64,000 nucleotides of DNA from the NCBI RefSeq assembly GCF_000002425.4, contig NC_037270.1, positions 2,331,680 to 2,395,679 of the forward strand, written 5' to 3'. The stretch's first letter is position 1. Each line of letters starts with the position of its first letter. Under the pieces are notes generated by a model. It was given only the letters and a program-made list of their open reading frames with translations, was not told where the DNA came from and did no database searches. Below, piece by piece: positions 7,381 to 51,410 of this stretch. The translations under genes were made by a program, and so were the position numbers. The stretch is from Physcomitrium patens (taxonomy: Eukaryota > Streptophyta > Bryopsida > Funariales > Funariaceae).

Positions 7381-7599
7381 TGTCAACAACATGAACTAAA
7401 AGAAGATGCATAAACCAATAAAATCCATGTCAAAGAAAGAGCGACAAAATAAAAATAAGGAAGTACATATATTTAAAAGAAATTGAAATGGCTTATTGCA
7501 AAAAGACAAGGAAACTTGAGACTCTTGAAACTAGACTAGAAGCAAGAAAAGAGTTGACAAGAATAAAGAAGGCTTCATTCTTGTCTCTATATATACTAT
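7381..7599 (-). repeat. A-type LTR fragment, left half (split by D1)
   Basis: The sequence is the reverse complement of the 3' part of a family A LTR. It begins tgtcaacaacatgaac, corresponding to the family terminus tgtcaaggacaagaac, and runs to the TATA region, ending in actat. The matching other half lies at 53312-53535, on the far side of D1, so D1 inserted into this LTR. Confidence 0.8.
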
Positions 7600-8492: not shown

Positions 8493-9052
8493 TGTCACGG
8501 ACATAATCATATAAGCTAATAATTACATATATAAATAAGTAGAAGTAAGTAAAAGTAGATAAAAGTAAGTTAATTCTATAGTATTTAATATGGAAGCTTC
8601 TTAGAAGCTTCATAGACGTTGCTTTGACTTCATAGGTATCTTTAATTGACTTTTTGGATTAGAAACAGGTCAACAAGTTGGCCATGTGCTACACATGTTG
8701 TTAGCTTGAAGATCAAGCTAACTATGTCGTCCACACGTAGAAGAACTTGCCTTATAAGTCAAGGCATGTGTCTTACAAAGTCAACAAATATTGGAGGTCC
8801 TATAGAACGTCGCCACATAGTTTCTAGTTAGATAGTATATATAGAGACAAAAGTGAAGGCTTCTTCACTCTTGTCAACTCCTTTCTTGCTTCTAGTCTAG
8901 TTTCAAGGGTCTCTAGTTTTCGAGTCTTTTGGCAATAGCCATTCCAGTTTCTCTTTCAATATATATACTTGTTTAGATATATTTTGTTACCTCTCTTTGA
9001 GTGAAGGCTCACTTGTTTGAATTATTTTTTCATCGAGTTCTTGTCCTTGACA
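8493..9052 (+). repeat. A-host 5' LTR (560 bp)
   Basis: Starts TGTCACGGACATA and ends CCTTGACA. A TATA box sits near 8833, followed by the family's inverted repeat. Just after the LTR the sequence ttgacaag begins, corresponding to the self-priming site discussed in the findings. Confidence 0.9.
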
Positions 9053-11308
9053 GATTGACAAGAATACACCTACAATATCAGAGCTTTGTTTAATCTTAAT
9101 TAAGAGTGGATTACCCCTTTTTCATGATAAGATATAAGCATATTAGAAGTTGTGGATTACCCTCTTCTAAACTGATATTATCGTTAGTATTTTCTTTGTT
9201 CTCAAGTCCTTTCTTCTATTTGTCTTGAGCGATATTAGACATCTTTTCTCTTCTAAGTGTTATCATGGCAGAACTTGTTGAAATGAAGAGTGCAATGGAA
9301 CAAATGCAAGAGCAATTGAGGGAGTTAATGCTTGCGATGCATCAACTCAATTTACCACCACAAGGAGCAACAAGATTGGCAGGAAGTGAAGATATAGAAA
9401 TGGTTGGAGCTACTTCAACATTTGCACCAAATCATGTCCTTTCTCTTATAGTGGAACGCCCTTCAAATGTTAGAGAATCAAGAATTGCCCTATCCGAGAA
9501 GTTTGATGGCACCAGATCCAAGTTTCGAGGATTTATCAATCAAGTGCAACTTGTGATTGAACTTCAACCCCAAAGCTATCCAACTTTAGGATCGCAAGTT
9601 AGATTCATTGGTACGCTTCTTTCAGGTTTAGCACTATCATGGTTTTCATCTTTTCTTGAATGACGAGATCCAATATTGGATAATCTAGAGGCTTTTTTGG
9701 CAGAGTTTTGATCCATGTATGGAGAACATGATGCAATTCGTGTTGCAACCAATAAGATCCATATTTTACGAGAAAGCAATCGATAAGTAACGTTATACGC
9801 TTCACAATTTTGACAACTTGCAACTGATATCAAGTGGGATGATGCTGTACTTATTAGTCAATTTCTCTATGGATTACAATATGAGGTAAAAAAATTAATG
9901 CTCAACTTATTTGATCCTCAAACATTGAGTCAAGCAATTGACTTTGCTGTGAAGTGCGACAATCGCCTTTTTGAATTCCGATCTGAGAACCATAGAAGTG
10001 GATCTCAACGTTACTATAATTCAATAGCAACACCTACACCTCTTCAACACATACATTCGAAAGTAGAAGAACTACAAATTAATAGAATATATTTCAAACT
10101 TCTTACTGAGCAAGAAAAGACTCGTCGTCGATAAGAAGGATTATGTTTATATTGTAGAGAACCAAAGCACAATGCTCAACATTATCCAAAGAAACAACGC
10201 AAACACAAAATGAGGAATATGGCTTTGAAAGAAGACAATATGTTAGAAAACGAATTTGTTCAGCTACAATAGGGACCGTGCGACTAGAACCTTGTACAAC
10301 ATCTAGTAAAGGTCCTATTCTCTCCTCAAAGCCCTCTCCTTGTTTTACATTAAATATTATTTTAGAATCTAAATATTAGAAAGTCTCTACCTTGTTAGAT
10401 TCAGCAGCCTGAGCATATTTTTTAGATGAAGAATTTACTAAAAGACATAGCATATCTTTAGTAAAGAAAACTAAACCTGTTCATGTAGAAGTCATAGATG
10501 GTGTCCATTGTCTTCTGGAGATATTACTCATGAAACCCTTCCTATAAAAGTAATAATCAATGGTCATAATAGTTTTGTAGTATTTAATATTATTAGATCT
10601 CTCTCTAATCTAGTCATTTTAGGTTTATCGTGGTTAGAAAAATACAACCCTTAAATAGATTAGATTTTCCGAATTCTTACTTTTTCTAAAAGTATAAGTA
10701 ACAGTGTAGTTAATCAAGTAGAGAGTCATAAGTCCAGTTCAATTAAATCCGTATTTATAGGTGCAAAAGCTTTCTTGTATGCTGCTATGAAAGAATCACC
10801 ATATATTATTTATGCCACACCCATTTCTACTAGTGAAAAAACTTCAAGTGGCATTCCAAGCCAATATCAAGAATTTCAAGATGAGTTTGAAAAAAAGAAT
10901 GCAGATACACTCTCAGAACATCGTCCCTATGATTGCTCAATTGACCTTCAAAAAGGAGCACAACTCCCATTTGGACCAATCTACAGTTTATCACAAAATG
11001 AGTTGGCTGAACTCAAGGAGTATATTGAAGAAAATCTAGCCAAGAATTTCATACGCCATTCTAAATCTCCGGCAGGAGTTCCAATTCTATTTGTGAAGAA
11101 AAAAGTTGGATCATTCCGGATATGTGTTGATTATCGAGGACTCAACAAGATTACCATCAAGAACAGGTATCCAATATCTTTAATATTTGGACTTCTTCAT
11201 CAGCTGAATCAAGCTAAGATCTATACAAAAATAGATCTTCGGGGAGTATACAATCTAGTACAAATCAAAGAAGGAGACGAATGGCAAACTGCATTTCGAA
11301 TCAAATAT
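9053..11308 (+). mobile_element. A-host gag, protease and start of reverse transcriptase
   Basis: Gag starts MAELVEMKSAMEQMQEQL at 9265 and matches A2 along its length. The reverse transcriptase region carries [11 protein letters not shown] and [17 protein letters not shown] and ends abruptly at about 11308 within the motif that reads [12 protein letters not shown] in A2. There the sequence switches to the minus-strand B1 integrase. Confidence 0.85.
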
Positions 11309-15854: not shown

Positions 15855-15893
15855 TGTTAGGAACATATTCCTTAGAACTTTCTAGAGAGAAGT

Positions 15894-16065
15894 TTCTAGA
15901 ACCTTCTAGAAAACAAGCCTCTGGAACCTTCTAGAAGAGAAGCCTCTGGAACCTTTTAGAGAGAAGTTTCTAGAAGCTTCTAGAAAAGAAGTCTCTAGAA
16001 CCTTCTAGAAGAGAAGTTTCTAGAAGCTTCTAGAAAGGAATTCCCTGGAACTTTCTAGAAGCTTC
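15894..16065 (+). promoter_or_regulatory. Array of heat-shock elements in the C 5' LTR
   Basis: Alternating TTC and GAA triplets spaced by two bases, the definition of a heat-shock element, recur through 170 bp: TTCTAGAACCTTCTAGAA (15894-15911), GAAccTTCtaGAA (15924-15936), TTCTAGAAGCTTCTAGAA (15968-15985 and 16018-16035), GAAccTTCtaGAA (15998-16010) and TTCTAGAAGCTTC (16053-16065). The array ends about 40 bp upstream of the TATA box. The 3' LTR has the same array at about 21613-21784. Confidence 0.75.
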
Positions 16066-16106
16066 CTAGTTAATAGAAGTAGCTCGAGAAGCTTCTTAAG
16101 TAGGAG

Positions 16107-16114
16107 TATATATA
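16107..16114 (+). promoter_or_regulatory. TATA box of the C 5' LTR
   Basis: TATATATA lies 42 bp after the last heat-shock-like unit. The base 30-32 positions downstream falls on cagtctcgacaac, the sequence complementary to the site just after the LTR. The 3' LTR copy is at about 21826. Confidence 0.75.
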
Positions 16115-16276
16115 GGGATCGAGGCTGAAGAGTTCTTCAGTCTCGACAACACATCTCTTGGAGTTCTAGCTCACCTTTCTGGTGTTGTTCTTGTACTCAT
16201 CTGTTTAATCTAGTTCTGCCACTTCTTCTTGAACTTCTTGTTAGATTTCAAGTCTGTATTTTGTGTCCGTGACAGT

Positions 16277-16287
16277 TTGTCGAGACT
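16277..16287 (+). promoter_or_regulatory. Candidate self-priming site of C
   Basis: TTGTCGAGACT, two bases after the 5' LTR, is the exact complement of AGTCTCGACAA at 16139-16149, where the transcript is predicted to begin. In the Tf1/sushi group the RNA 5' end folds back to such a site to prime reverse transcription. Confidence 0.65.
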
Positions 16288-16554
16288 ACACTAACTTGAG
16301 ATATTAGAGCTAGTTCTTTCTTAGTAGAGTGTGGATTACCCCTCTACTTGAAGGTATACTAGCATTTTTTAGAGGTTGCGGATTACCCTCCTCTAAACTG
16401 ATACTTCTTCTGTTACAATATTGGAGTCTTATTCTTCTTGGAGAGAGTGGATTACCCCTCTTCTTGAAATTCTTAAGGCATTTTATAGGTTGTGGATTAC
16501 CCTCCTATAAACCAATATTGCCTCTTATAGGGTCATTTTTGTCCTTCTTTTAGA

Positions 16555-17571
16555 ATGGCCGGAGGTCAAGTCATTAGTATGATAGAAAGTTTGAAGTCTA
16601 AGTTAGATGCTATTATGAATGCCCTCGCTACGTTATCACAAAGAACTGCAGAGATTGAAGGAGTGGTCGCAAGGCTTCATAATTATGGAGTATCTGGAAT
16701 AGCACAATCTAAACTAAACCAGCCTCAAATTTTGACACTTGGAGAAACAACTTTACCTCAGGTTCGACAAGAACCACTAGTTCTACAACATAAGGAGCCT
16801 CGAGTTAGCCTTCCAGATAAGTTTGATGGAACACATTCCAAGTTTTGAGGATTCGTCAATCAAATCAGGTTGATAACAGTTTTACAGCCTGAACGATATC
16901 CAACGGAGGAATCACGTGTTGGGCTTGTTGGAACCTTACTTACGGGACAAGCTCTATCATGGTTTGCTCCTTTGTTTGAGAAACGATCATCCATATTAAA
17001 CAACTTCGAAACCTTTTTGGAAGCATTTGCGGAAGCATTTGGTGAACACGATAAGGTTCGATGGGTTACAACAAAGATCCGATCGCTACGACAAGGGATG
17101 CATTCTACATCAGTCTATGCTTCGGATTTCAGGCAATTAGTATGCGACATCAATTGGGATGAAGAAGCGTTGATGAGTCAATTCTATTGGAGTTTAAGAG
17201 ATGATGTGAAGGATTTGCTGTTAACTCTTTCTGATCCACGAATGCTCAATGAAGCCATTAGCCAAGCTGTGAAGTGCGATAATCGCCTATTCCAACGTCG
17301 CCAAGACCAACGCTCAAGACAACATACAATTTGCCATGCTCCAACTATATCGGCAAGCGGTGTGAATTCGCATTCAGAGGTGGAAGACATGCAAATTGAT
17401 GCGGTACGTATCAAATCTCTTACTATAGAAGAAAAAAAGCGACGTATGGAGGAAAATTTATGCTTGTATTGTGGTGGAGAAGGCCACAAAGTCGAAAACT
17501 ACCCCAAAAAGCAAAATCGAGGCATAGTCAAGACTAGGGGAGTATTTGTTCAGGAAAACGAGGATGCCTAG
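16555..17571 (+). mobile_element. C gag
   Basis: Starts MAGGQVISMIESLKSKLDAI, with a short coiled coil at the N-terminus. A capsid-type retrotransposon gag region carries SWFAPLFEKRS and VCDINWDEEALMSQFYWSL, and a single CCHC-like knuckle (CLYCGGEGHKVENYP) lies near 17464-17508. Pol continues in the -1 frame, overlapping the gag end, as in A2. It is largely open with little damage. Confidence 0.85.
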
Positions 17572-20500
17572 CCACAGTAGGAACCGTGCGGCTGGACAAT
17601 GAAATATCCCAACAACAATCAGGTTCCTTTCTTTCTGCCCAACCTGCACTTTGTTTTACAATCCCTCTGTTTATCGGCCCTCAAAAACTGAGAACCTTAG
17701 CACTACTAGACTCAGGAGCATCTGCTTGTTTTTTAGATGAAGAATTTGCAAAGCATCATAAGAACCCTTTAGTACAAAAATCAAAACCTGTTCATGTTGA
17801 GGTCATAGATGGGCGACCTTTATTGTCTGGTAGCATCACCCATGAATCAAAACCTATAGAAGTAACGTTTAAAGACCATAGTAGTCATATTATTTTTAAT
17901 ATTATTAGAACCCCATCAAATCCTATTATTCTTGGTCTTTCTTGGTTGGAAAAACATAATCCATTGATAGATTGGAGGTTGCGGAAGATGACTTTTCCCA
18001 CAAAACCACCCAAGAAAAAACCTAGTAAAAAACCTCGAAAAAAAAAATCCTTATTCATTGGAGCAAGAGCTTTTATAAGATCATCTAAGGAAGGCACTCC
18101 ATTTGTCATTTATGCGGCTCCAACTACCGAGGAGAAGATCTCAACAGTAAGTATACCGGAGCAATATAAAGATTTTGAAGACGTGTTTCAAAAGAAGAAC
18201 GCCGACATACTACCGGAACACCGACCATATGATTGTGCCATAGACTTGCAAGAAGGAGCACAACCACCTTTTGGCCCAATCTACAATCTATCGCAAACGG
18301 AGTTGGTAAAGTTACGAAAGTACATCAACAAAAATCTAGTCAAGAACTTCATTCGTCATTCAAAATCATCAGCTGGAGCACCCATCTTATTTGTAAAGAA
18401 GAAAGATGGATCATTACAGATGTGTGTGGACTACCGAGGCCTCAACAAGGTAACAAAGAAAAATCGTTACCCATTACCCTTGATTTCTAGTCTCTTAGAA
18501 TAACTTGGACGTGCGAAGATCTTTACAAAAATTGATCTAAGGAGAGCTTATAATCTCGTACGAATCAAGGAAGGAGATGAGTGGAAGACAGCATTTCGTA
18601 CAAGGTATGGTCATTTCGAATATAATGTCATGCCTTTTGGTCTTACCAATGCTCCAGCAGTTTTCCAACATATGATGAATGACATCTTTCGAGAACACCT
18701 CGACGATTTTGTTGTCATCTACTTGGACGATATTCTAATATTCTCTAAAAACGAGGAAGAGCATGAGGAGCATGTTCGTTTAGTCTTGGAGGAACTACGC
18801 AAGCGAGGACTATATGCCAAATTAGAAAAGTGTTTATTTCACCAGACAAAGATGGAATTTTTGGGATTCATTGCGACTACAGAAGGTTTGAAGATGGATC
18901 CCAAGAAAGTAGAAGCAATCATGTCTTGGGAGGTTCTGAAGACAGTTAGAGACGTACAATTCTTTCTTGGTTTTGCTAACTTCTATCGGATCTTCATCAA
19001 GAATTATTCTCAAGTTTCTCCTCCTCTCACTCGATTAACATGCAAGGGTAAGTTGGAATGGGGACCTTTGGCGGAGAAGGCGTTTCAAGATTTGAAGACA
19101 GCATTTACTACAGCTCCAATTTTGGTACATCCAGACTTTACAAAGGCCTTTTATTTAGAAACTGATGCTTCAGATTTTGCTTTGAGAGCTGTGCTTTCAC
19201 AAATGAGTGAAGATAAGAAGCTCCATCCAGTTGCATTCTATTCTCGGAAGTTTTCTGCTGCTGAAATCAATTATGAGATCCACGATAAGGAACTTCTTGC
19301 TATAGTGGATTCTTTCGAAGAATGGCGTCACTTTCTTGAAGGAGCTACACATATAGTAACCGTATATACGGATCACAAGAATTTGGAGTATTTCATGATG
19401 GCTCGAGTTTTAAATCGACGTCAAGCTCGGTGGAATATGTCGCTATCTAGATTCGATTTTGTTATCACTTATCGACCTAGAAGGCAGCAAGGACTATCCG
19501 ATGCTTTATCAAGAAGATCGTATCTTGCACCAAAGGCTGGAGAAGCAGCGTTTGATCAACAATATACAATGTTATTGAAGCCAGAGAGATTTCAACTTTG
19601 TGCTACTATTGTATCATTTGATGCTGACTTCCTAAACCAGGTACATGCTATGACCATTAAAGATTCAGTAGCCATTGATATCAAGCAACGTACCAATGAC
19701 GATAAGTTCAAGGTGGAGGGAGATCTTTTATACTTTGAAGAGCGATTGTACATTCCAAAAGGACTAGCACGACTCCGAGTTCTTCAATCTCGCCATGATT
19801 TTCCAGTTGCGGGACATTTTGGATTCAACAAGACCTTGGAGCTTATTTCCCAAGATTTTTGGTGGCCCCAAATGTAGAAGGATGTGAAAGATTTTGTCCT
19901 CTCTTGTGACATCTGTTCAAGATCTAAGAATCCTTGGCATCGCCCTTATGGACTTCTACAGCCATTGCCAATTCCACGTCAACCATGGTCTTCAATTTCT
20001 ATGGACTTCATCACGGACTTGCCATCATCAAACTCATTTGACAGCATCTTTGTCGTGGTAGATCGGCTTACGAAGATGGCACACTTTGTTCCTTGTAAGA
20101 AGACATCGTCCAGTGAAGTCATAGCAAGACTCTTTCTCGATAATGTGTATCGATATCATGGACTACCAGATGATATCATATCAGATCGAGGTATCCAGTT
20201 CGTGTCAAAGTTTTGGAGATCTCTCTTTGGGATATTGAAGGTGGATATCAAGCTTTCTTCAGCTTTTCATCTTCAAACTGATGGCCAAACAGAACGGGTG
20301 AACCAAGTCTTGGAGCAGTACTTACGATGCAGCATCAACTATCAACAAGACGATTGGACTGCATATCTACCGCTAGCCGAGTTTACATATAACAACACCC
20401 TCCATGCATCGACTCAACAAACACCATTCTTTTCCAACTATGGGTATCATCCGAAGCTTGATTTATTGAGTCAGTCAACAAATAACAATCCAGCAGCTGA

Positions 20501-21060
20501 AGGATTTGTGAAGCAACTATCAGAGCTTCAAACTATGTTGAAGCTTCAATTACAATCCGCTCAAGAATCCTATAAGACGTCTGCAGATAGATTTCGGAAT
20601 CCAGCACCTACTTTCAAAGTTGGAGACAAAGCCTGGCTTCTTCGACGAAATATCAAGACCAAGCGACCATGTGATAAGTTGGACTATCGAAGATTGGGAC
20701 CATTTATCATCCAGAAGCAAATTAATCCAGTGGCATACCGGCTGGAGTTACCGGCTTCTATGAAGGTACATCCAATCTTTTATTTTTCTCTGTTGGAATC
20801 TTATCGAGAGTCATCTTTTCCTGGAAGAGTGCAATGTCCACCATCTAGTATTGAAATCGAGAACCACGAAGAATACGAGGTTGAAAAGGTATTGGATTCA
20901 CGACGAAGGTGGGGAAAGTTAGAATATCTTGTTCATTGGTGCGGCTATGACATTAATGAGCAAACGTGAGAGCCAGCTGAAAATCTTGCGAATGCGCCAC
21001 AAAAGGTACAGGAGTTTCATCAACGACATCCCGATAAACCTAAATCAATTCGATGATAGC
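17572..21060 (+). mobile_element. C pol: protease, reverse transcriptase, RNase H, integrase, chromodomain
   Basis: The protease has [15 protein letters not shown] at about 17700-17745. The reverse transcriptase runs about 18190-18900, with CVDYRGLNK and YLDDIL near 18720. RNase H runs about 19100-19520 (ETDASDF, YTDHKNLEYF, LSDALSRR). The integrase has its zinc-binding H-H-C-C region at about 19790-19930 and its core from about 19990, including MDFITDLP, SDRGIQF and DGQTERVNQ. A chromodomain lies at about 20870-21010 (YEVEKVLDSRRRW, LEYLVHWCGYD). The order is that of a Ty3/gypsy chromovirus. Confidence 0.9.
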
Positions 21061-21172
21061 TTCTTTCTGAAGCTTGTTCTTCCAACAATATAAGAAAAGG
21101 GGAGAGCACCAGCAAAATTCATAGTTTATGTAGTTATTTTCTCCAAGATAGATCGTAGTTTGGTCTTTTGAT

Positions 21173-21526
21173 ATGGATAGCCAAGAGATAGATACTATGC
21201 CAATCAGAGTATCGCAACCGAGTAGCTCACGAAGGCAACCCCGAGATGAAGAACTACATGTACCACGACGACAACGGAGGATACCGAGTAACCGATCACT
21301 GGTGATCGTATTTGAGATCGAGCCTACTTACGATGGTCAACCAGAAGGTGTGTTTGTAGGACAATTTCACAATGAGGAAACGGAAGTTCATGCTTGGTCA
21401 GAAGTCGAAGGCATGGGCCACTACCATTGGCTTCAAGGGTCGATGAATCACTTGCCTCCTGAACAATAGTTGGAGTTCATAGCAGAAGTTATGCGAAAGA
21501 TCTTCATTTTCTTGCGTTGGTACTGA
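21173..21526 (+). mobile_element. C accessory ORF X (between chromodomain and 3' LTR)
   Basis: A short frame starting MDSQEIDTMPI. It has an Arg-rich stretch (RRQPRDEELHVPRRQRR), a central VFEIEPTYDGQPEGVF block and a conserved motif GMGHYHWLQGSMNHLPPEQ. A2 and A-host carry related frames at the same position with GMGHYRWLRGPINYLRREQ. No transmembrane segment or signal peptide is visible, so it does not look like an envelope. Function is not recognised. Confidence 0.65.
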
Positions 21527-21573
21527 TCAACAACATTGCTTCTCAGAGACCTCGAAGCTAAAAGAGGGGGTGA

Positions 21574-21989
21574 TGTTAGGGACATATTCCTTAGAACTTT
21601 GTAGAGAGAAGTTTCTAGAACCTTTTAGAAAACAAGCCTCTGGAACCTTCTAGAAGAGAAGCCTCTGGAACCTTTTAGAGAGAAGTTTCTAGAAGCTTCT
21701 AGAAAAGAAGTCTTTGGAACCTTCTAGAAGAGAAGTTTCTAGAAGCTTCTAGAAAGGAATCCCCTGGAACTTTCTAGAAGCTTCCTAGTTAATAGAAGTA
21801 GCTCGAGAAGCTTCTTAAGTAGGAGTATATATAGGGATCGAGGCTGAAGAGTTCTTCAGTCTCGACAACACATCTCTTGGAGTTCTAGCTCACCTTTCTA
21901 GTGTTGTTCTTGTACTCATCTATTTAATCTAGTTCTGCCTTTTCTTCTTGAACTTCTTGTTAGATTTCAAGTCTATATTTTATGTCCGT
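21574..21989 (+). repeat. C 3' LTR, main part
   Basis: Preceded by the polypurine tract aaaagagggggtga. It matches the 5' LTR with only a few differences. The final gaca lies at 35180-35183, after element F and its duplicated ccgt. Confidence 0.95.
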
Positions 21990-22330
21990 TGTCGTATTAT
22001 GTACTTTCCTGCTCGAGAACACGCCGGACGTCTGGCTGTAGAAGGTAGTATGGAGATTTGCCGATAGTCAAGCAGTCTATCAGTTTTTGACTGCTGGAAT
22101 ATAAACGACTACAACAATGTACCGTAAATCTATACGGATGCTCTTTGACTGCTTGTTGAAGTCTTTTTTTTTGCCCCAGCCGATAGGTCTCTAGACGTTA
22201 TAGAGAACCCCGAACAACCCAAACTGTTAATCTTCAATACCCCTTTGTACTTACGATCTTGTATCCACTAACTGTCCTGTTAGATTAATCCAATAAATTT
22301 CATTCACTCCGCATACTCAATCCTATAGAC
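21990..22330 (-). repeat. F 3' LTR, first piece
   Basis: Starts tgtcgtattatgtac (plus-strand view) and ends cctatagac, where A2 is inserted. It continues at 28688 after the duplicated tagac. Confidence 0.9.
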
Positions 22331-22638
22331 TGTCACGGACATACATATAATTACCTATATGAATAGATAAAAGTATGTAAAAGTAGATAAAAGTAGGTTA
22401 ATTATGTAATATCTTCTAGAGAAGCTTCTTAGAAGCTTCATAGATGCTGCTTTGACTTTATAGGAGTCTATAGTTGACTTTTAGGTTAGAAACTTGGTCA
22501 ACAAGTTAGCCATGTGCCACACATGTTGGAAGCTTAAAGAACAAGCTAACTACGTGGTCCATCCATAGAAAACTTGCCTTGCAAGCAAAGGCATGTGGCC
22601 TAGAAAGTCAACATATATTGGAGGTCTTATAGAACATC

Positions 22639-22648
22639 GCCACGTGGC
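22639..22648 (+). promoter_or_regulatory. G-box in the A2 LTR promoter
   Basis: GCCACGTGGC is a perfect palindromic CACGTG G-box, 14 bp upstream of the TATA box. It is repeated at 28451-28460 in the 3' LTR. In plants such motifs bind bZIP or bHLH factors in light and abscisic-acid responses. The older A-host LTRs show only degenerate forms. Confidence 0.55.
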
Positions 22649-22662
22649 TTCTAGTTAGATAG

Positions 22663-22670
22663 TATATATA
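22663..22670 (+). promoter_or_regulatory. TATA box of the A2 LTR
   Basis: TATATATA lies 30 bp before CACTCTTGTCAA (22693-22704), the predicted transcript 5' end. The 3' LTR copy is at 28475-28482. Confidence 0.75.
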
Positions 22671-22674
22671 GAGG

Positions 22675-22700
22675 CAAGAGTGAAGCCCTCTTCACTCTTG
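22675..22700 (+). repeat. Perfect inverted repeat next to the A2 transcript start
   Basis: CAAGAGTGAAG, a 4-base gap (ccct), then CTTCACTCTTG. The same arrangement, with different arm sequences, occurs in C (16119-16146). A-host has a 13-bp-arm version at 49636-49665. Confidence 0.85.
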
Positions 22701-22872
22701 TCAACTCCTTTCTTGCTTCTAGTCTAGTTTCAAGGGTCTCTAGTTTTCTTGTATTTTGGCAATAGCCATTCCAGTTTCTTTCTTAATATACATATTTCTA
22801 TTTTGTCCTATTTCTTTTTGAGAAAAGTCTCACTTACTCTTTAGCTTTCATCGAGTTCTTGTCCTTGACAGA

Positions 22873-22884
22873 TTGACAAGAGTG
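22873..22884 (+). promoter_or_regulatory. Candidate self-priming site of A2
   Basis: TTGACAAGAGTG begins two bases after the 5' LTR. It is the exact complement of CACTCTTGTCAA at 22693-22704, 30 bp downstream of the TATA box. This matches the layout of Tf1/sushi self-priming. A tRNA-like atatcaaagc lies a little further on (about 22893) and is the alternative. Confidence 0.65.
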
Positions 22885-23082
22885 CACTTACAATATCAAA
22901 GCTTTGTCTTTTCTTGATTAAGAGTGGATTACCCCTTTTTCTTGATAAGACATAAGCGCATTAGAAGTTGCGGATTACCTTCTTTTAAACTGATATTGTT
23001 CTTAGTATTTTCTTTGTTATCAATTGTTTTCTTCTATTTGTTTTGAGCGTTATTAGACATCTTCTCTTTTCTAAGTGCTACT

Positions 23083-24090
23083 ATGGCAGAGCTTGTTGAA
23101 ATGAAGAGTGCAATGGCACAGATGCAAGAACAATTGAGGGAGTTAATGCTTGCGATGCATTTACTCAATTTACCACCACAAAGAGCAACAAGAATGGTAG
23201 GAAGTGAAGATATAGAGATGATTGGGGCTGCTTCAACATCTGCACCAAACCATGTCCCTTCTCCCAGAATGGAACACCCTTCGAGTGTTAGAGAACCGAG
23301 AGTTGCCTTGCCCGAGAAGTTTGATGGTACCAGATCCAAGTTTCGAGGATTCATCAATCAGGTCCAACTAGTGATTGAACTTCAATCCCAGAGCTATCCA
23401 ACTCCAGGGTCACAAGTTAGATTCATTGGTACACTTCTTTCAGGTTCAGCATTGTCATGGTTTTCATCTTTTCTTGAACGACGAGATCCAATATTGGATA
23501 ATCTGGAGGCTTTTTTGGCGGAGTTTCGATCCATGTTTGGAGAACATGATGCAATTCGTGTTGCAACCAACAAGATCCATATTTTGCGACAAGGCAATCG
23601 ATCAGTAACATTATATGCTTCGCAATTTCGACAACTTGCAACTGATATCAAGTGGGATGATGCCGCACTTGTGAGTCAATTTCTCTACGGATTACAATAT
23701 GAGGTAAAGAAATTGATGCTTAATTTACCTGATCCTCAAACATTGAGTCAAGCAATTGACTTTGCTGTGAAGTACGACAATCGACTTTTTGAATTTCGAT
23801 CCGAGAGTCGCACAAGTGGGCCTCAACGTTACTACAATTCAATGGCAACACCGACGTCTCCTCAACACATACCTTCAGAAGTAGAGGATATGCAAATTGA
23901 TGCGGTACATTTCAAACCTCTTACTGAGCAAGAAAAGTCTCGTCGTCGACAAGAAGGATTGTGCTTATATTGTGGAGAACCTAAGCACACTGCTCAACAT
24001 TGTCCAAAGAAGCGACGTAACTACAAAATGAGGAGTACGGCTGTTAAAGAAGACAGTATGTCAGAAAACGAGTACGTCCAGCTACAATAG
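23083..24090 (+). mobile_element. A2 gag
   Basis: Starts MAELVEMKSAMAQMQEQL with a short coiled coil. The capsid-type core follows (FDGTRSKFRGFINQV, SWFSSFLERRDP, LATDIKWDDAALVSQFLYGL), then one CCHC knuckle (CLYCGEPKHTAQHC, about 23960-24005). About 335 codons. Pol lies in the -1 frame, with the shared segment T-I/V-G-T-V-R-L just at the gag end in both A2 and C. Confidence 0.9.
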
Positions 24091-27000
24091 GGACCGTGCG
24101 GCTGGAATCTTGTACAACTTCTAATGAAGGTCCTATCTTCTCCTCAGAACCATCTCCTTGTTTTATAATAGATGTGCGTTTAGGATCTAATAATTACAAA
24201 GCCTCTGCCTTGGTAGATTCAGGAGCCTCATCTTGTTTTTTAGATGAAGAATTTGCTAGATGTCATAGAATATCATTAATATAAAAAACTAAACCTGTAC
24301 ACGTAGAAGTCATAGATGGTCGTCCGTTGTCTTCTGGAGATGTAACTCACGAAACACTTCCTATAGATGTAGTAATAAATGGTCATAGTAGTTGCGTAAT
24401 TTTTAATATAATTAGATCTCCCTCTAATCCAATAATTTTAGGCTTATCATGGTTAGAAAAGTATAATCCTCGAATAGATTGGATTTCTCGTAAACTTGAT
24501 TTTTCTCAGAGCATTAGTAACAGTTCTATTAATCAAGTAAAAAACCATGAGTCTAGTATAGTAAAACTCGCACTTATAGGTGCAAAAGTATTTATACACG
24601 CAGCAAAAGAAGGATCAACTTTTGCTATTTATGCTGCACCTATTTCTGAAAGCGTAAAGACTTCAAGTGGCATTCCAAGTCAATATCAGGATTATCAAGA
24701 CGTTTTTGAGAAAAAGAATGCAGATATTCTTCCTGAGCATCGCCCATACGATTGTTCAATCGATCTCAAGGAAGGAACTCTGCCACCATTTGGACCAATT
24801 TACAGTTTATCGCAAGATGAGTTGGCTGAACTCAAGACATATATTGACGAGAATTTAGCGAAGAATTTCATACGCCATTCAAAATCTCCAGCAAGAGCTC
24901 CAATTTTATTCGTAAAGAAAAAAGATGGATCTTTACGAATGTGTGTTGACTATCGAGGACTCAACAAGATCACAATCAAGAACAGGTATCCATTACCTTT
25001 GATATCAGGACTCCTTGACCAGTTAAATCAAGCTAAGATCTATACAAAAATAGATCTAAGAGGAGCATATAATCTAGTACGGATCAAAGAAGGAGATGAA
25101 TGGAAGACTGCGTTTCGAACCAGGTACGGGCCTTTTCAATATAATGTCATGCCTTTTGGACTCACGAATGCACCAGCTGCTTTTCAACATCTCATGAATG
25201 ATGTATTTCGTGAATTCTTAGATAATTTTGTCGTCTGCTACCTAGACGATATCCTGATTTATTCTAAGAATGTTGAAAACATGAAATACATGTTCGTCAA
25301 GTATTACAAAAACTTAGAGATACAGGATTGTATGCCAAGATGGAAAAGTGTGTATTTCACACTACTCAAGTTGACTTTTTAGGATACATCATTTCAAATG
25401 ATGGTCTTATGATGGATTCTAAGAAAGTCCAAACAATCATGGATTGGAAGATTCCAAAGACTGTAAGAGATGTCCAATGTTTCTTGGGATTTGCCAATTA
25501 CTATCGGATCTTCATCAAAGACTTCTCACGAGTTGCAGCTCCACTTACACGCTTGACTAGTAAAGATAAATTCCAATGGAATCAAGAAGCGGAAGCAGCA
25601 TTTGAAGCCTTGAAGACATCGTTTGTCTCTGCACCAGTCTTATATCGTGTTGACTTTTTCAAGGTATTTTTTATGGAAACAGACACATCGGATTTTGCCT
25701 TGGGTGCAGTTTTATCACAAATGGGAACAGATGACAAACTTCATCCGATAGCTTTTCATTCAAGAAAATTCTCAGCAGCCGAGATCAATTATGAGATCCA
25801 CGATAAAGAACTTCTTGCAATCGTGGATTCCTTTCAAGAATGGCGTCATTATCTAGAAGGTGCTTCTAGTCCAGTCACTGTGTATACAGATCACAAGAAC
25901 CTCGAGTATTTCATGTCAACACGCGTGTTGAATCGTCGTCAAGCTCGTTGGAGTATGTCTTTGTCAAGATTCGACTTCATTATCACTTATCGGCCAGAAA
26001 AACAACAAGGTTTGTCCGATGCCCTGTCTAGACGTTCTTATTTTGCACCAAAAGAAGGAGATGCAGCTTTTGAGCAACAAAGAACGGTCTTCTTGAAACC
26101 GGAGCAATTTCATCTCCGAGCAGTGAAATCAACATTGACTGTTGATTCAACTTTTCTCAAGCAAATCCAGTCCAGTATGTCCTCAGACCCTCTTGTTCAT
26201 GATATCGAGAATAATTCTTCCAAGTCTCATGATTCTTCTAAGTTCGAGTTCAAGAATAATCTATTATATTTTGAAGGACGCCTATATGTTCCAGAAGGAA
26301 ACGCACGTTTGCGTGTTCTTCAAGCACGTCATGACTTTCCAGCAGCAGGGCACTTTGGATATAATAAGACTCTGGAACTCATATCAAGAGATTTTTAGTG
26401 GCCACAAATGTGGAAGTCAGTCAAAGACTTTGTACAATCATGTAATATTTGTTCAAGATCAAAAATTCCTCGACATCGATCTTACAGACTTCTTCAGCCA
26501 TTACCTATACCAGAACAACCATGGTCTTCTGTTTCTATGGATTTCATCACAGATCTTCCAAACTCAAGATCTTATGATTCTATATTTGTGATAGTAGATC
26601 GTTTCACCAAGATGGCACATTTTATGCCATGTACAAAATCTATCACAGGTGAAGAAACAGCTAAGCTTTTCATTGATAATATCTATCGCTATCATGGATT
26701 ACCTAAAGATATCATATCAGATAGGGGAACTCAATTTGTGTCGAGATTCTGGAGGACTCTTTTCAAGATTTTAAAAGTGGACATAAAGCTATCTTCAGCT
26801 TTCCATCCTCAAACTGATGGACAAACAGAGCGCGTAAACCAAGTCTTAGAACAGTATTTAAGGTGTACCATCAACTACCAACAAGATGATTGGACAAACC
26901 TTCTGCCATTGGTAGAGTTTGCTTATAATAATACGGTACATTCCTCCACGCAACAAACACCTTTCTTTGCCAATTATGGCTATCATCCACGACTTGATAC

Positions 27001-27562
27001 TTTTGATTTTTCAAAAGTTGATAATCCTGCAGCAGAAGATATGGCAAAACAGTTGTCAGAGTTACATGCAATAATGAAGGCGCAGTTGAAGAAAGCTCAA
27101 GAACGACAAAAGATAAATGCAGATGTATATTGTAAAGAGCAACCAGAACTCAACGTGGGTGATAAGGTATGGCTACTTCGTTGCAATATCAAGACCACTC
27201 GACCTTGTGACAAATTGGACTATCGTAGGCTTGGCCCCTTTTCTGTTTCTGAACAGATCAACCCAGTTGCATATCGGTTACATCTACCGGAGTCAATGAA
27301 GATCCATCCTGTATTCCACGTGTCTCTTCTTGAACCATATAAGACAGTGGATATACAAGGAAGAAGACAAATGCCACCGCCTCCTATAGAAGTAGATAAT
27401 AATGAAGAATTTGAGGTGGAAGAGATATTAGACTCAAGGCGGCGCCGAAATAAGCTGGAATATCTTGTTCATTGGTGCGGATATGATATTAGTGAGCGCA
27501 CATGGGAGCCATCCAGGAATCTAGCAAATGCATCAGCTAAAGTCAATGTTTTTCATCAATGA
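24091..27562 (+). mobile_element. A2 pol: protease, reverse transcriptase, RNase H, integrase, chromodomain
   Basis: The protease has ALVDSGASSCFLDEEF at about 24207-24260. The reverse transcriptase runs about 24700-25450 ([23 protein letters not shown] near 25239). RNase H runs about 25660-26040 (METDTSDFALGAVLSQ, YTDHKNLEYF, LSDALSRRSY). Integrase covers about 26320-27100 (zinc-binding region, MDFITDLP, SDRGTQF, DGQTERVNQ). A GPY/F-like region lies at about 27150-27330. The chromodomain is at about 27400-27545 (FEVEEILDSRRRRNK, LEYLVHWCGYDISERTWEP). A few breaks only. Confidence 0.92.
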
Positions 27563-27678
27563 CATCCATCAAAATCAAGATGAAAACCTCTCTTATAAAA
27601 GAGACAAGATTGAGGCAAGATAACATTCAATTTCCTATCCTTGTTTGTAACTTCTTTGCATTTTGTGACGCTAATTAG

Positions 27679-28101
27679 ATGGAGAGCCAACAACCAGCGG
27701 ATTCAACTCAAGAACCTTCGTTTGCTGACTTACCGGATGAGACATTGCGATTGTCACAACCTTCAAGACGACGCAACTGAGATGAAGACCCTCAAGAACG
27801 ACATGTTCTTCCTCGAATAGATGGTGAGATACAACGCGTTTGGTATCACGACCTTGGAAGAGATTCTCGATGTTTGGTGATATTATTGGAGATAGGAACG
27901 ACTCCTGATGGTGTTTCAAATGTATTATTTGAAGGAAGTTATGAAGGCCTCAACAGTGATCAAATAACAGGGTGGTCTTCTCGCCCTGGAATGGGACACT
28001 ATCGATGGCTAAGAGGACCCATCAACTATCTTCGAAGAGAACAAAGATCAGAGTATGTAGCAAATACAATTCGTCACATATTAGATTTACTCAATATATA
28101 A
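27679..28101 (+). mobile_element. A2 accessory ORF X
   Basis: About 140 codons starting MESQQPADSTQEP, between the chromodomain and the polypurine tract agaaggggaggtaa. It has an Arg-rich N-terminal part, CLVILLEIGTTPDGVSNVLF, and the motif GMGHYRWLRGPINYLRREQ followed by a helical YVANTIRHILDLL. It is related to 48818-49240 (A-host) and 21173-21526 (C). No family is recognised and no membrane segment is seen. It has one break. Confidence 0.7.
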
Positions 28102-28142
28102 TCACCGCTCCTCGTGGAACTCGTCCCTAGAAGGGGAGGTAA

Positions 28143-28682
28143 TGTCACGGACATACATATAATTACCTATATGAATAGATAAAAGTATGTAAAAGTAGAT
28201 AAAAGTAGGTTAATTGTGTAATATCTTCTAGAGAAGCTTCTTAGAAGCTTCATAGACGCTGCTTTGACTTTATAGGAGTCTATAGTTGACTTTTAGGTTA
28301 GAAACTTGGTCAACAAGTTAGCCATGTGCCACACATGTTGGAAGCTTAAAGAACAAGCTAACTACGTGGTCCATCCATAGAAAACTTGCCTTGCAAGCAA
28401 AGGCATGTGGCCTAGAAAGTCAACATATATTGGAGGTTTTATAGAACATCGCCACGTGGCTTCTAATTAGATAGTATATATAGAGGCAAGAGTGAAGCCC
28501 TCTTCACTCTTGTCAACTCCTTTCTTGCTTCTAGTCTAGTTTCAAGGGTCTCTAGTTTTCTTGTATTTTGGCAATAGCCATTCCAGTTTCTTTCTTAATA
28601 TACATATTTCTATTTTGTCTTATTTCTTTTTGAGAAAAGTCTCACTTACTCTTTAGCTTTCATCGAGTTCTTGTCCTTGACA
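28143..28682 (+). repeat. A2 3' LTR (540 bp)
   Basis: Same length as the 5' LTR and nearly identical to it, followed by the target duplication tagac. Confidence 0.95.
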
Positions 28683-35175: not shown

Positions 35176-35183
35176 CCGTGACA

Positions 35184-35912
35184 CCAACTTCCGACAACCC
35201 TTTGTACTAAAACCCAGATATCTCTTGATTGCATTGTTAGATGAACACAAATTTTTGTATACACTTAGCACACCCAACTATCTAGACAATACCAAATTTT
35301 GACCCATAGATGCTACACGACTTGCACAAACCAATTGAGAATGCAAACCATCAATGTTTTATATAAAATCCGAAACACCAAAATAAACACTGACTTTGAG
35401 TAGCAATTGCTCTCCTCTCACAAACTCTAATGAAACCAAACTAGTGATTTTAAAAAGAGCTTGAAGCTAGCTCTTCGATCCAAAAACCCGACCTAAAAAA
35501 ACCTCAGTATTTTGCCCTAGGCGGCCGTTTTAGTGGCTAGAGGTCGGATTTCGACCCTGTCTCATATCCGGCCGACCCCCGGATATCAGTCTAATCTATC
35601 CTAGTGGTTTTATAGCCCGATCCTACCCTCAACTTAATCCTAGTATCAACCATAATAATAAATTATCCTTTTTATTCTTTTTTTACCATTTTATGGCCTT
35701 TCTAAGGCAATTAAAAAGTTACTACAGCCTAGAAGGTAAAATTACTAACTAGTTTTTATCTACTAGCTATTAAGTGAAGAAAATAGGATTAGAGGCTTTT
35801 ATAAAAGCCTTGTAAAATATATTGAATTCTTGTTGAACCATGATAATAGAATATTAATTAAAATATCATTTTTTTGTCATTTTTCACCATATAGTCGTGT
35901 CACAACACAACA
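35184..35912 (-). repeat. E solo LTR, right piece
   Basis: Begins with ccaac, the second copy of the C target duplication, and ends gtcacaacacaaca before acgt and the resumed B1 gag. AT-rich with no coding signal. Confidence 0.7.
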
Positions 35913-47018: not shown

Positions 47019-49281
47019 CTGTATATACGGATCACAAGAACCTCAAATATTTTATGTGTGCACACATATTAAATCATTGCCAAGCTCGTTGGAGCATGTC
47101 TTTATCAAGATTCGAGTTCATCATCACTTATCGGCCAAAAAAATAACACGATTTATTTGATGCCTTGTCTAGACGTTCTTATCTTGTATCAAAAGAAAGA
47201 GATGCAGCTTTTGAGCAACAAAGAGCGGTTTTCTTGAAGCCGGAGTAATTTCATCTTCGAGCAATAAAATCAACATTGACTGTTGATTTAACTTTTTTTA
47301 AGCAAGTCCAATTAAGTATGTCTTCAGACCCTCTTGTTCATGATATCAAGAATAAATCTTTTAAATCTCATGATCCCTCTAAATTTGAATTCAAGAACAA
47401 CCTATTCTATTTTAAAGGACGCCTATATGTTCCAAAAGGAGAAGCACGTTTACGTATTTTTTAAGCTCGTCACGACTTCCCAGCAGTAGGACGTTTTGGA
47501 TATAATAAGACTTTAGAGCTGATATCTAGGGATTTTTGGTGGCCTCAAATGTGGAAGGCACTTAAAGATTTGTACAATCATGTGATGTTTGCTCAAGATC
47601 GAAAACTCCTCGTCATCGACCTTTTGGACTTCTTCAGCCATTACTCATTCTAGAACAACTATGGTCTTCTGTTTCTATGGACTTTATCACGGATCTTCCC
47701 ATCTCAGGTTCTTATGACTCTATATTCGTGATAGTAGCTCGTTTTACCAAGATGGCATATTTTGTACTATGTACAAAATTTATCACAGGTGAAGAAACAG
47801 CTAAGCTCTTTCTTGACAATATCTATCGCTATCATGGATTATCCAAGGATATTATATCAGATAGGAGAACTCAATTTGTATCAAGATTTTACCAGACTCT
47901 TTTCAAGATTCTTAAAGTGGATATAAAACTATCTTTGGCATTCCATCCTCAAACTGATGGACAAACGAAGCGTGTTAATCAAGTTTTGGAGCAATATTTA
48001 AGATGTACCATTAATTATCAATAAGATGAATAGACAACTCTTTTGCCATTGGTAGAGTTTGCTTACAATAACATGATATATTCTTCTACAATACAAACAT
48101 CTTTCTTTACTATATATGGTTATCATCCACGACTTGATACATTTGATTTCTCAAAAGTTGATAATCCTACTGCGAAAGATTTAACAATTCATTTATCAGA
48201 GCTACATGCAACGATGAAGGCGCAGTTAAAAGAGGCTCAAGAACAACAAAAGGTCAATGCAGATGTCTATCGAAAGGAACAATCATCATTCGTCTTGGGT
48301 GATAAGGTATGGCTACTTCGTCGTAATATCAAGACGACTCGTCTTTGTGATAAGTTGGACTATCGAAGGCTGGGACCATTTTCTATTTCTATACAAATCA
48401 ATCCAGTTGCATATCGTTTACATCTACCGGAGTCAATGAAAATCCATCCAGTATTCCACATGTCTCTTCTTGAACCATACAAAATAGTGGACATACCAAG
48501 AAGACGACAAGTTCCACCTCCTCCTATAGAAGTGGACAATAATGAAGAGTTTGAAGTAGAAGAAGTCTTAGATTCAAGGAGGTGCCAAAATAAATTAGAA
48601 TATCTTGTCCATTGACGCGGATATGGTATTAGTGAATGCATATGGGAGCCAATAAAGAATCTTCCAAATGCAGCAATGGTGGTGGAGGCTTTTCATTGAC
48701 GACATCCATCAAAATCAAGATGAAAACCTTCTTTATAAAAGAAACAACATCTAGGCAAGATAACATTCTACTTTCAATTCTTGTTCATAGTTTCTTTGTA
48801 GTAGTGACGCTCAAGAGATGGAGAACCAACAACCAGCGGATTTGACTCAAGAGCCTTTATTTATTGACCTACAGGATGAGACATTATAATTATCACAACC
48901 TTCAAGACGACGCAATTGAGATGAAGATCTTCAAGAACGACATGTTCTTCCTCAAATAGATGGCGAGATACAATGCATTTGGTATCACAATTTGGAAAGG
49001 GACTCCCAATGTTTGGTGATTGTGATAGAGGTAGGAACAACTCCTGATGGTATTCCAAATATTCTATTCGAAGGAAATTACAAAGGCCTCAACAATAATC
49101 AAATAACTGGGTGGTCTTCCTACCTTGGTATGGGACACTACCGATGGTTGAGAAGCCGTATCAATCATCTTCGAAGAGAACAAAGATTAGAATATGTGGC
49201 AAATACAATTTGTCGCATCATAGATTTCCTCAACATATGATGACCACTCCTTGTAGAACTCATCCCTAGAAGGGAGGGTAA
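47019..49281 (+). mobile_element. A-host 3' half: RNase H end, integrase, chromodomain, accessory ORF
   Basis: Begins inside RNase H ([10 protein letters not shown]) straight after the B1 LTR terminus. Integrase motifs include MDFITDLP and FHPQTDGQT. The chromodomain segment has EVEEVLDSRR and KLEYLVH. The stretch 48818-49240 is a copy of accessory ORF X (GMGHYRWLRSRINHLRREQ), also found in A2 and C. A polypurine tract agaagggagggtaa precedes the 3' LTR. Confidence 0.85.
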
Positions 49282-49841
49282 TGTCATGGATATAATCATA
49301 TTAGCTAGTAATTACATATACAAATAGGTAGAAGTAAGTAAAAATATGTAAAAATAAGTTAATTCTATAGTATTTAATATGGAAGCTTCCTAAAAGCTTC
49401 ATAGACGCTGCTTTGACTTCATAGGTGTCTTTAATTGACTTTTTAGATTATAAACATGGTCAATAAGTTGGCCATGTGCCATACATGTTGTTAGCTTGAA
49501 GATCAAGCTAATTATGTGGCCTACACGTAGAAGAATTTGCCTTGTAAGTCAAGGCATATGTCCTACAAAGTCAACAAATATTGAAGGTCCTATAGAACAT
49601 CACCACGTAGCTCTTAGTTAGATAGTATATATAGAGACAAGAGTGAAGGCTTCTTCACTCTTGTCAACTCCTTTCTTGTTTCTAGTCTACTTTCAAGGTC
49701 TCTAATTTTCTTGTCTTTTGGCAATAGCCATTTCAGTTTCTCTTTTAATATATATACTTGTTTAGATATATTTTATTACCTCTCTTTGAGTGAAAGCTCA
49801 CTTGTTTGAATTTTTTTTTCATCGAGTTCTTATCCTTGACA
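49282..49841 (+). repeat. A-host 3' LTR (560 bp)
   Basis: Pairs with 8493-9052, at about 10 percent divergence over the first 215 bases compared by eye. At 49636-49665 it contains a perfect inverted repeat (13-bp arms, 4-base gap) directly after the TATA box. Confidence 0.9.
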
Positions 49842-51410
49842 GGAAGAGAGCATTGTATCGAGGAAAATAAATCAGTTGAGAAAAAGATAAGGAAGAGCAC
49901 AAGGAAGGAACTTTCTTAGAGAGGAGCAAGAACGTAATCTTAAAAAGAAGCATCGACAAAATTGGATTAAACCATGGTTGCAAGCTTGTTGGCGCATCCA
50001 AACATATCAAGAACCGGACAGATTGTTAATTCTGTACTCGTATGTATCGTTAGAAAAACTGCCCAGAACACTTGCAAAATTTTTTGTTAATATTCCAGTA
50101 GAAATCTTGAGGCCGTTAACTAAAAGAGGAGGTGTAGAAGAATTTGGTACTTCATTGGATATTTTTTCAATAAGGGGTACTGCTGAAACAAGCAATAGTG
50201 GCTCTTTTCATTGGCACAAATTGGTCACCAATAAACATAACTATATTGTATTTTAAAATCTGATGTTTTCACCTGTAATTCAACTAATAAAACTATTTGT
50301 GAAAAATAATAGTAAATCAAAGAGCACTGAGAGTTTAGAAATTAGAATAGGAGAAAGCAGAGATTATTTTAAAACTGAGTTTAGTGGAACAAGAAATTCA
50401 ATGGCGTCAGGAGGACCAGCCGTTTTGATTGCAGTACAAATGGATGCAGTAGGTAATCATATGACTAGTGTCATGCGACTTCCTACTTTTTAGGGATTTT
50501 TGGATGCAGATTCTGATCAATATTTATCTCAATTTCTTACAGCATGTATAGCTAATAATAGTAGAATTGAAGATATTTGATTGAGATGGCTTCCAATGAC
50601 CTTAAAAGACACGGTATTTGAATGGTACAACCGCCAACCAGTGGATCAATTTCTGAATTGGGAAGCATTGAAGAATGTATTTTTAACTCATTTTTGGCCA
50701 ATTGGTTTTGAGGACCGCCTTCAAGAGAGGTTAATGAATAGCAAAATGATCCTAGGGGAGGCGGTGGAATCGTATTATGGTCGAGTCGCTAATATACTCA
50801 ATAAGTGGCCGAATCACCAAATATCGGAGGCATTTATCTTATCCATATTAATCAATGGTTTGCATCTACCAGAGCTAAAAATGTTTGTAAAAGAAGCTCA
50901 AACCATTATGGTGGCTGCGTCCCTTAATAGAGTCAAGGTTTTGAAGGAATGCCATTATGATTAGTTTTTAACTGTGGGAACCACGATGATTCCAGTTCAA
51001 GGTAGATATCAAAATCCGACTTGGAACGAATCAGTGGCTGTTATCCACGGATGTTAGAAACAGGGGCCAATTCCAACACCAATATTCAGGGGCCAGTTAA
51101 TGTCACCTCATTGTAAGCTATACCACCGAATGTGACAATAGTGTATGCTCCATATTTTTCGTATCAACAACAAGCGTTAATTACAGCAGAGATACCAATA
51201 ATGCCAGTCCTAAAAGATTCCAATGAAACCTTATTATTGAATTTGATGAAGAAAATAGAGGAAATGGCCATCAATATGGCCAAAGATAAGGAGAAGAGGC
51301 AAAAGCCTACCAATATTAGGACCAATGTATGGTGCAGTAATTATAAGGGCCATGGTCATTCTGTAACAGAATGCCCCTCATCTTTACAAATAATGGGCCA
51401 TATCATGTGA
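49842..51410 (+). mobile_element. D1 gag region
   Basis: The recognisable part at about 50581-50964 is a retrotransposon gag domain, with motifs WLPMTLKDTVFEWYN, FWPIGFEDRLQER, AVESYYGRV and ISEAFILSILINGLH. It is followed near 51330-51380 by a zinc-knuckle-like segment (GHGHSVTEC). The same motifs occur in D2 (FEDRLRESFMNS, VESYYGRI, ISDAFILSILINDLH), which shows the two are one family. The first part (49842-50560) is open but less conserved. Confidence 0.75.

Follow-up and report, generated by a model that had tools for sequence, protein, structure and literature searches.

An inverted repeat over the predicted transcription start of moss Tf1/sushi-type retrotransposons, and its proposed role as an RNA lock in self-priming

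Two moss LTR retrotransposons, A2 and C, have 11 nucleotides at the predicted 5' end of their RNA that are complementary to the site just past the 5' LTR, and an inverted repeat that straddles the predicted start of transcription. These features are, with good confidence, best explained as a whole by Ty3/gypsy elements of the Tf1/sushi type that are self-priming and whose start-site inverted repeat is proposed to act as a lock on the primer. The initial annotation of this DNA had read the complementarity as self-priming; that reading is supported here by the layout, the compensatory changes, the relatives and the phylogeny. The inverted repeat over the start site had been missed, and the suggestion that self-priming was new in plants did not hold.

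The window, that is, the whole 64-kb stretch of DNA analysed, is a nest of LTR elements, which includes the following:

22331..28682, plus strand: element A2, a chromovirus, with LTRs of 540 bp at 22331-22870 and 28143-28682
15855..16274, plus strand: 5' LTR of element C, 420 bp; its 3' LTR partner starts at 21574 and is split by element D at 21989/21990
8493..9052, plus strand: 5' LTR of element A1, whose internal part extends to 11303
49281..49842, plus strand: A3 LTR (a 3' LTR), matching the A1 LTR at 91.5%
7430..7599, minus strand: A4 LTR fragment

The LTR pair of A2 is 99.1% alike and the element is flanked by a 5-bp target duplication, TAGAC. Pfam matches to Gag, RVT_1 (reverse transcriptase, RT), RNase H, rve (integrase), SH3_Tf2-1 and Chromo were obtained for both A2 and C, which thus have the Ty3/gypsy pol with a chromodomain that characterises the Tf1/sushi group. 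The single organism name among the matches to A2 Gag was that of the fungus Cetraspora pellucida, at 50% identity, as expected for a Tf1/sushi-like group. Element D interrupts the 3' LTR of C 4 bp before that LTR ends and has a 4-bp repeat, CCGT (21986-21989 and 35176-35188), and C itself is seemingly flanked by CCAAT/CCAAC. A moss is the probable host: seventeen of the 120 matches listed for an ORF of the neighbouring element D were predicted proteins of Physcomitrium patens (78-93% identity over 25-43% of the query); next among the matches listed came the liverworts Riccia and Calypogeia and the fern Adiantum.

The features that bear on priming in A2 and C are as follows:

22663..22670, plus strand: TATA box of A2
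22694..22704, plus strand: proposed self-primer of A2, RNA +1 to +11, with the start predicted from TATA
22873..22883, plus strand: primer-binding site (PBS) of A2
16139..16149, plus strand: proposed self-primer of C, RNA +1 to +11, with the start predicted from TATA
16277..16287, plus strand: PBS of C

Position +1 was predicted as the A of a CA 31-32 bp past TATA, at 22694 in A2 and 16139 in C. A2 carries CACTCTTGTCAA at 22693-22704; its LTR ends ...TTGACA at 22870, and after GA comes TTGACAAGAGTG at 22873-22884. In C, where TATA lies at 16107, AGTCTCGACAA occupies 16139-16149, the LTR ends ...GTGACA at 16274, and GT is followed by TTGTCGAGACT at 16277-16287. Nucleotides +1 to +11 are complementary at 11/11 positions to the PBS two bases past the 5' LTR in both elements. 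The pairing and coordinates first reported for the two families were exact; the match common to both is 11 nt, and the twelfth pair of A2 falls at position -1. Compensatory change had also been proposed, and all three differences between the A and C primers, at +2, +6 and +8, are indeed matched in the PBS. By our own arithmetic, an exact 11-mer within three positions of a fixed place is expected by chance at about 3/4^11 per element.

In A1 the primer (8867-8877) and PBS (9055-9065) pair at 10 of 11 positions. The primer of the A4 LTR fragment, ATTCTTGTCAA, with +1 at 7564, matches the A1 PBS at every paired position, so the single mismatch in A1 may come from a sister lineage and not from decay. 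With six distinct 11-mers, 92.4% of primer positions were paired, against 71.1% after permutation (20/5000; L002, described below, left out). Because a copied primer could rewrite the PBS in each round, as we infer from the replication scheme, this covariation would trace mechanism as much as selection. In single-strand folding the primer:PBS helix forms with a mean pair probability of 0.77-0.97 in the ten elements tested.

A scan of contigs was used for comparison and gave 57 loci, which are eukaryotic retrotransposon contigs in bacterial and archaeal genome records, evidently contamination. L001, from a desert-crust bin, is moss-like, with an RT 89% identical to that of C. The source of L002-L007, L009 and L051 is a bin from run ERR2144891 that bears the label Trichormus; as this is the name of the Azolla symbiont, they are probably fern (Azolla) elements, although the run number was not seen in the text of PMC5901025, on the Azolla metagenome. 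The 57 loci and the window (58 sequences, both strands) were scanned for inverted matches of 10 nt in which TATA precedes the first arm by 28-37 positions and the second arm directly follows CA. Thirteen sites were found, eight of which have the layout in question (A2 and C of the window, L001, L002, L003, L005, L007 and L051), and the other five lie in AT-rich sequence (L021, L036, L038 twice, L040). A direct-repeat version of the scan gave 5 sites; in 20 runs on first-order Markov copies the average was 2.65. The same layout is thus present in six relatives, one moss-like and five probably fern, together with a degraded seventh; when ten moss and fern 5' ends were tabulated, eight paired fully, A1 at 10/11 and the L006 5' copy at 7/11. 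If the fern relatives are truly from fern, the self-priming layout is not confined to mosses and club-mosses. A further candidate, L058, was rejected as a phage with a chance match, and the viral contigs scanned held no relative.

In an RT tree computed without L051 and without reference Tf1 and sushi-ichi, A2, C, L001, L002-L007 and L009 make up a single clade (13 of 37 rows, 97/95 support). This is enclosed in a clade of 29 rows (100/100) that also holds elements from fungi and vertebrates, including two that their sources call Tf2, which places the moss elements among Tf1/sushi-like elements by RT phylogeny. L002 and L009 fall on the side of the moss elements (98/93) and not in the L003-L007 group. 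The exact layout, the compensation between A and C, its recurrence in relatives and the position of the RT among Tf1/sushi-like elements all support Tf1/sushi-type self-priming, which on this sequence evidence is the best reading for A and C and a highly probable one.

A second conserved feature lies over the predicted start site itself, where a hairpin was located in the following places:

22673..22702, plus strand: A2 start-site hairpin (proposed lock), with U3 arm 22673-22685, loop 22686-22689 and arm 22690-22702 over -4 to +9
28485..28514, plus strand: copy of the hairpin in the A2 3' LTR, from fold and stem scan
16119..16146, plus strand: C start-site hairpin, with U3 arm 16119-16130, loop 16131-16134 and arm 16135-16146
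21838..21865, plus strand: copy of the hairpin in the C 3' LTR, from stem scan
8846..8875, plus strand: A1 start-site hairpin, from fold and stem scan
49636..49665, plus strand: A3 start-site hairpin, from stem scan
7556..7585, minus strand: A4 start-site hairpin, from stem scan

The A2 hairpin reads GGCAAGAGTGAAG-ccct-CTTCACTCTTGTC (22673-22702) and has 13 pairs, one of them G-U. Its shape is repeated in C, L001, A1, A3 and A4, the U3 arm of A4 being altered to match its primer. L005, L007, L051 and the L006 3' LTR have the same hairpin shape in unrelated sequence (GTTCGCCTTGAT-loop-ATCAAGGCGAAC and variants), and the hairpin of L003 is slightly weaker. Compared with shuffled upstream arms, the hairpin folds at z -4.6 to -7.1 in 12 of 16 LTR rows; counting A4, the predicted start is spanned by a hairpin of 12-13 bp with a loop of 4 nt in 13 of 17 LTR copies. 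The LTR rows folded that lack it are L002, the L006 5' copy and the two from L016. A search of both strands of the 64 kb for stems of at least 11 pairs that close a 4-nt loop and include no more than one G-U gave seven places, all of them A or C start sites; ten simulated plus strands gave two in total. The A1 hairpin was found on the antisense strand only, owing to an A-C mismatch on the sense strand. Ten distinct arm pairs were 95.4% paired, compared with 64.0% when the arms were permuted (0/20000; L002 and the L006 5' copy left out). The compensations include positions -4 to -1 (CTTC in moss; ATC or ACC in fern), which are outside the PBS pairing, so the PBS cannot explain them there. We conclude that the start-site hairpin is very probably a maintained feature of these elements.

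The palindrome might act on the DNA, as a promoter, initiator element or cruciform, with the RNA fold incidental, and its position, exactly between TATA and +9, is where promoter elements lie. This is unlikely, since a protein site would keep its letters, whereas the moss and fern sequences are unrelated and what is kept is the pairing and the 4-nt loop. On the sense strand G-U (5 cells, 4 pairs) also exceeds A-C (2 cells), in a small sample in which A1 is reversed, with G-U on the antisense strand. Alternatively, the arms could be kept alike by templated mutation without any function. Quasipalindrome correction is an established mutational mechanism and matches arms whatever their letters, which would yield covariation; it leaves unexplained, however, why the palindrome keeps the same spacing to TATA and +1 in moss and fern and occurs nowhere else in the window, and we consider it an improbable account.

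Under the preferred interpretation, in which the hairpin is a maintained element feature, we infer the start site, the primer cut and the lock of the following scheme from the observed complementarity, palindrome and conserved geometry. RNA would start within the 3' arm of the hairpin, so that a correct 5' end would lack the U3 arm and be free for the PBS. This end would fold back on the PBS, the RNase H of the element would cut after nucleotide 11, and the 11-mer would prime minus-strand DNA; for Tf1 these steps have been demonstrated by experiment. As R is repeated in the 3' LTR, one self-primed RNA would hold two identical primer copies, and use of the wrong one would sever the 3' LTR. There, however, the U3 arm would be present and would fold with -4 to +9, so that the PBS could pair only with the free 5' end. 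A lock of this kind would protect the 3' R, on which the first strand transfer depends, against cutting as a primer, and would stop read-through transcripts begun upstream from priming. We give about even chances to the model in which the hairpin hides the 3' primer copy as a lock, so that only the true 5' end primes; it may or may not be, with confidence equally divided, that self-primed retrotransposons of early land plants carry a U3/R RNA lock that is present only where U3 precedes R, namely in read-through transcripts and at the 3' end of genomic RNA. If true, the lock would answer how a self-primed RNA tells identical primer copies apart.

Opening of the hairpin was calculated to cost PBS binding 4.9-15.2 kcal/mol in eight elements with the hairpin, compared with 0.3-2.4 kcal/mol in three without it. 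Co-folding of A2 and C, a calculation that leaves aside distance, proteins and pseudoknots, gave a value of 0.000 for pairing of the PBS with the 3' LTR copy when U3 was present, and 0.95 (A2) and 0.69 (C) when U3 was cut away. L002, with a perfect 12-nt primer/PBS match, and L016, with a 9-nt match, are without the hairpin, so the lock is not required for the self-priming layout. In the L006 5' copy both the hairpin and full primer/PBS pairing have been lost. Given the placement of L002 and L009 in the RT tree, the hairpin had either a single origin followed by loss in L002, or two origins.

L002 is an intact fern-type element without the start-site hairpin, and its primer (L002:206-217, 346-357) holds an 8-nt palindrome, TTGATCAA, through which two RNAs could pair with each other. 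A general occurrence of the hairpin in Tf1/sushi elements was not borne out by L016, the only locus of fungal type in this group that has an RT, a self-match and a clear pair of LTRs. The 9-nt match of L016 between 5' end and PBS lies at 82-90 and 186-194, with the primer 44 bp past TATA, and a different hairpin is found upstream of the primer.

The region that follows the PBS is also structured in the moss elements:

22890..22999, plus strand: A2 three-way-junction domain with two GGAUUACC hairpins, from folding and covariation; it holds the supposed tRNA-like stretch
9071..9182, plus strand: A1 three-way-junction domain, from folding and covariation
16295..16411, plus strand: C three-way-junction domain 1, from folding and covariation
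16412..16526, plus strand: C three-way-junction domain 2, from folding and covariation

The domain is a three-way junction with two hairpins ending GG-AUUA-CC, and is present once in A2 and A1 and twice in C; L001 has one such domain with the loop letters changed, and none was seen in the fern 5' UTRs compared. Of the 41 pairs compared across five sequences, 14 show changes in both partners (7.3 on average in shuffles, 0/500). Pairing holds in 90.2% of cells, against a shuffle mean of 83.3 and no more than 58.9 in slid versions; pair types were no more numerous than in shuffles of these sequences (187/500). Eight of the ten occurrences of GGATTACC in the window are within these domains. Folding of the entire 5' region surpasses that of shuffles in C (z -4.2, 0/100) but not in A2 (z -1.4, 8/100) or A1 (z -0.3, 32/100). 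The domain is possibly a packaging or translation signal, packaging being a guess, and its apical part resembles the MS2 coat-protein operator.

The stretch atatcaaagc, named in the initial annotation as a competing tRNA site, proved to be the 5' strand of the closing stem of this domain, with ctgatattg as its partner; two pairs of the stem change on both sides, and the stretch reads atatcaaagc in A2, atatcagagc in A1 and atattagagc in C. Priming by a tRNA or half-tRNA at this stretch, with the pairing of 5' end and PBS merely structural, is highly improbable, for although it is close to the usual place of a PBS, it varies between copies together with its partner strand, and TGG, with which a PBS complementary to a tRNA 3' end usually begins, does not occur within 20 nt past the LTR in A2, A1, C, L001 or L003, which sets them apart from the tRNA-primed chromoviruses (CRM, Tekay, Reina, Galadriel). 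ARAGORN, run with the bacterial code, found no tRNA genes in the 64-kb window.

Self-priming is retained as the best reading for A and C, and has precedents. The first 11 nt of the RNA are complementary to the PBS in Tf1/sushi elements, and self-priming has been proposed for Tcn1 of C. neoformans, according to the available portion of PMC7175516. A and C resemble Tf1, Tf2, Tj1 and sushi-ichi in the chromodomain pol, the 11-nt match of 5' end and PBS and the LTR ending CA; they differ in the added start-site hairpin and three-way-junction 5' UTR, and in flanking duplexes that are weak or absent in C and L001. These 'pretzel' duplexes, described for Tf1 in the part of PMC10085805 available, are visible in the fern relatives. 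For the upstream duplex, controls as good numbered 0-7 of 300 in L002, L003, L005 and L007, 26 in the L006 5' copy, 37 in A2, 46 in A1, 62 in L051 and 142 in L016; it was not clear in C (281/300) or L001 (291/300).

In plants, self-priming had already been predicted by Neumann et al. 2019 (PMC6317226, in the text available) for most moss and club-moss elements of the Tcn1 clade, which are without a tRNA-complementary PBS, and for the Ty1/copia TAR lineage (Houba, Osr-1). Elements of the Tcn1 clade (PpatensLTR, SM-Tcn1), likened here by description alone, share with A and C the host group, the chromodomain and predicted self-priming. SM-Tcn1 of Selaginella is unlike A and C in that self-priming was sought and not found, nor was tRNA priming, as stated in the accessible part of PMC2864245. 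The TAR lineage is likewise from plants and predicted to self-prime, but belongs to another superfamily (PMC6317226, same portion). Fungal GalEa elements of Ty1/copia have a Conserved Hairpin Site near the priming region, as A and C do; in the portion of PMC5445492 available it lies past the 5' LTR, is without a U3 arm, and no match to the RNA 5' end is reported as found. A start-site hairpin is not described in the available text of the literature searched on self-priming elements, a coverage that lies outside the primary Tf1 reports. The hairpin is possibly a new control element in self-primed elements, self-priming itself being already known.

Rfam gave 23 matches in 15855-23100, every one under the gathering score and most of them to microRNA models in the repeat-rich LTR of C; one was a weak antisense match of the SAM-II model over C domain 1, also below the gathering score. 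These matches were taken as chance. One further array was found in the C LTR:

15889..16065, plus strand: array of heat-shock-element-like units in the U3 of C, from motif count against shuffles

The P. patens family RLG2 is heat-induced, according to the part of PMC7466625 available. By motif count, heat-shock-element-like three-unit matches were absent from A1, A2, L002, L003, L005 and the L007 5' part. Two were present in L001 and one each in the L006 3' LTR, the L007 3' end and L051, and the array in the U3 of C holds 13 overlapping matches, against a shuffle mean of 0.02.
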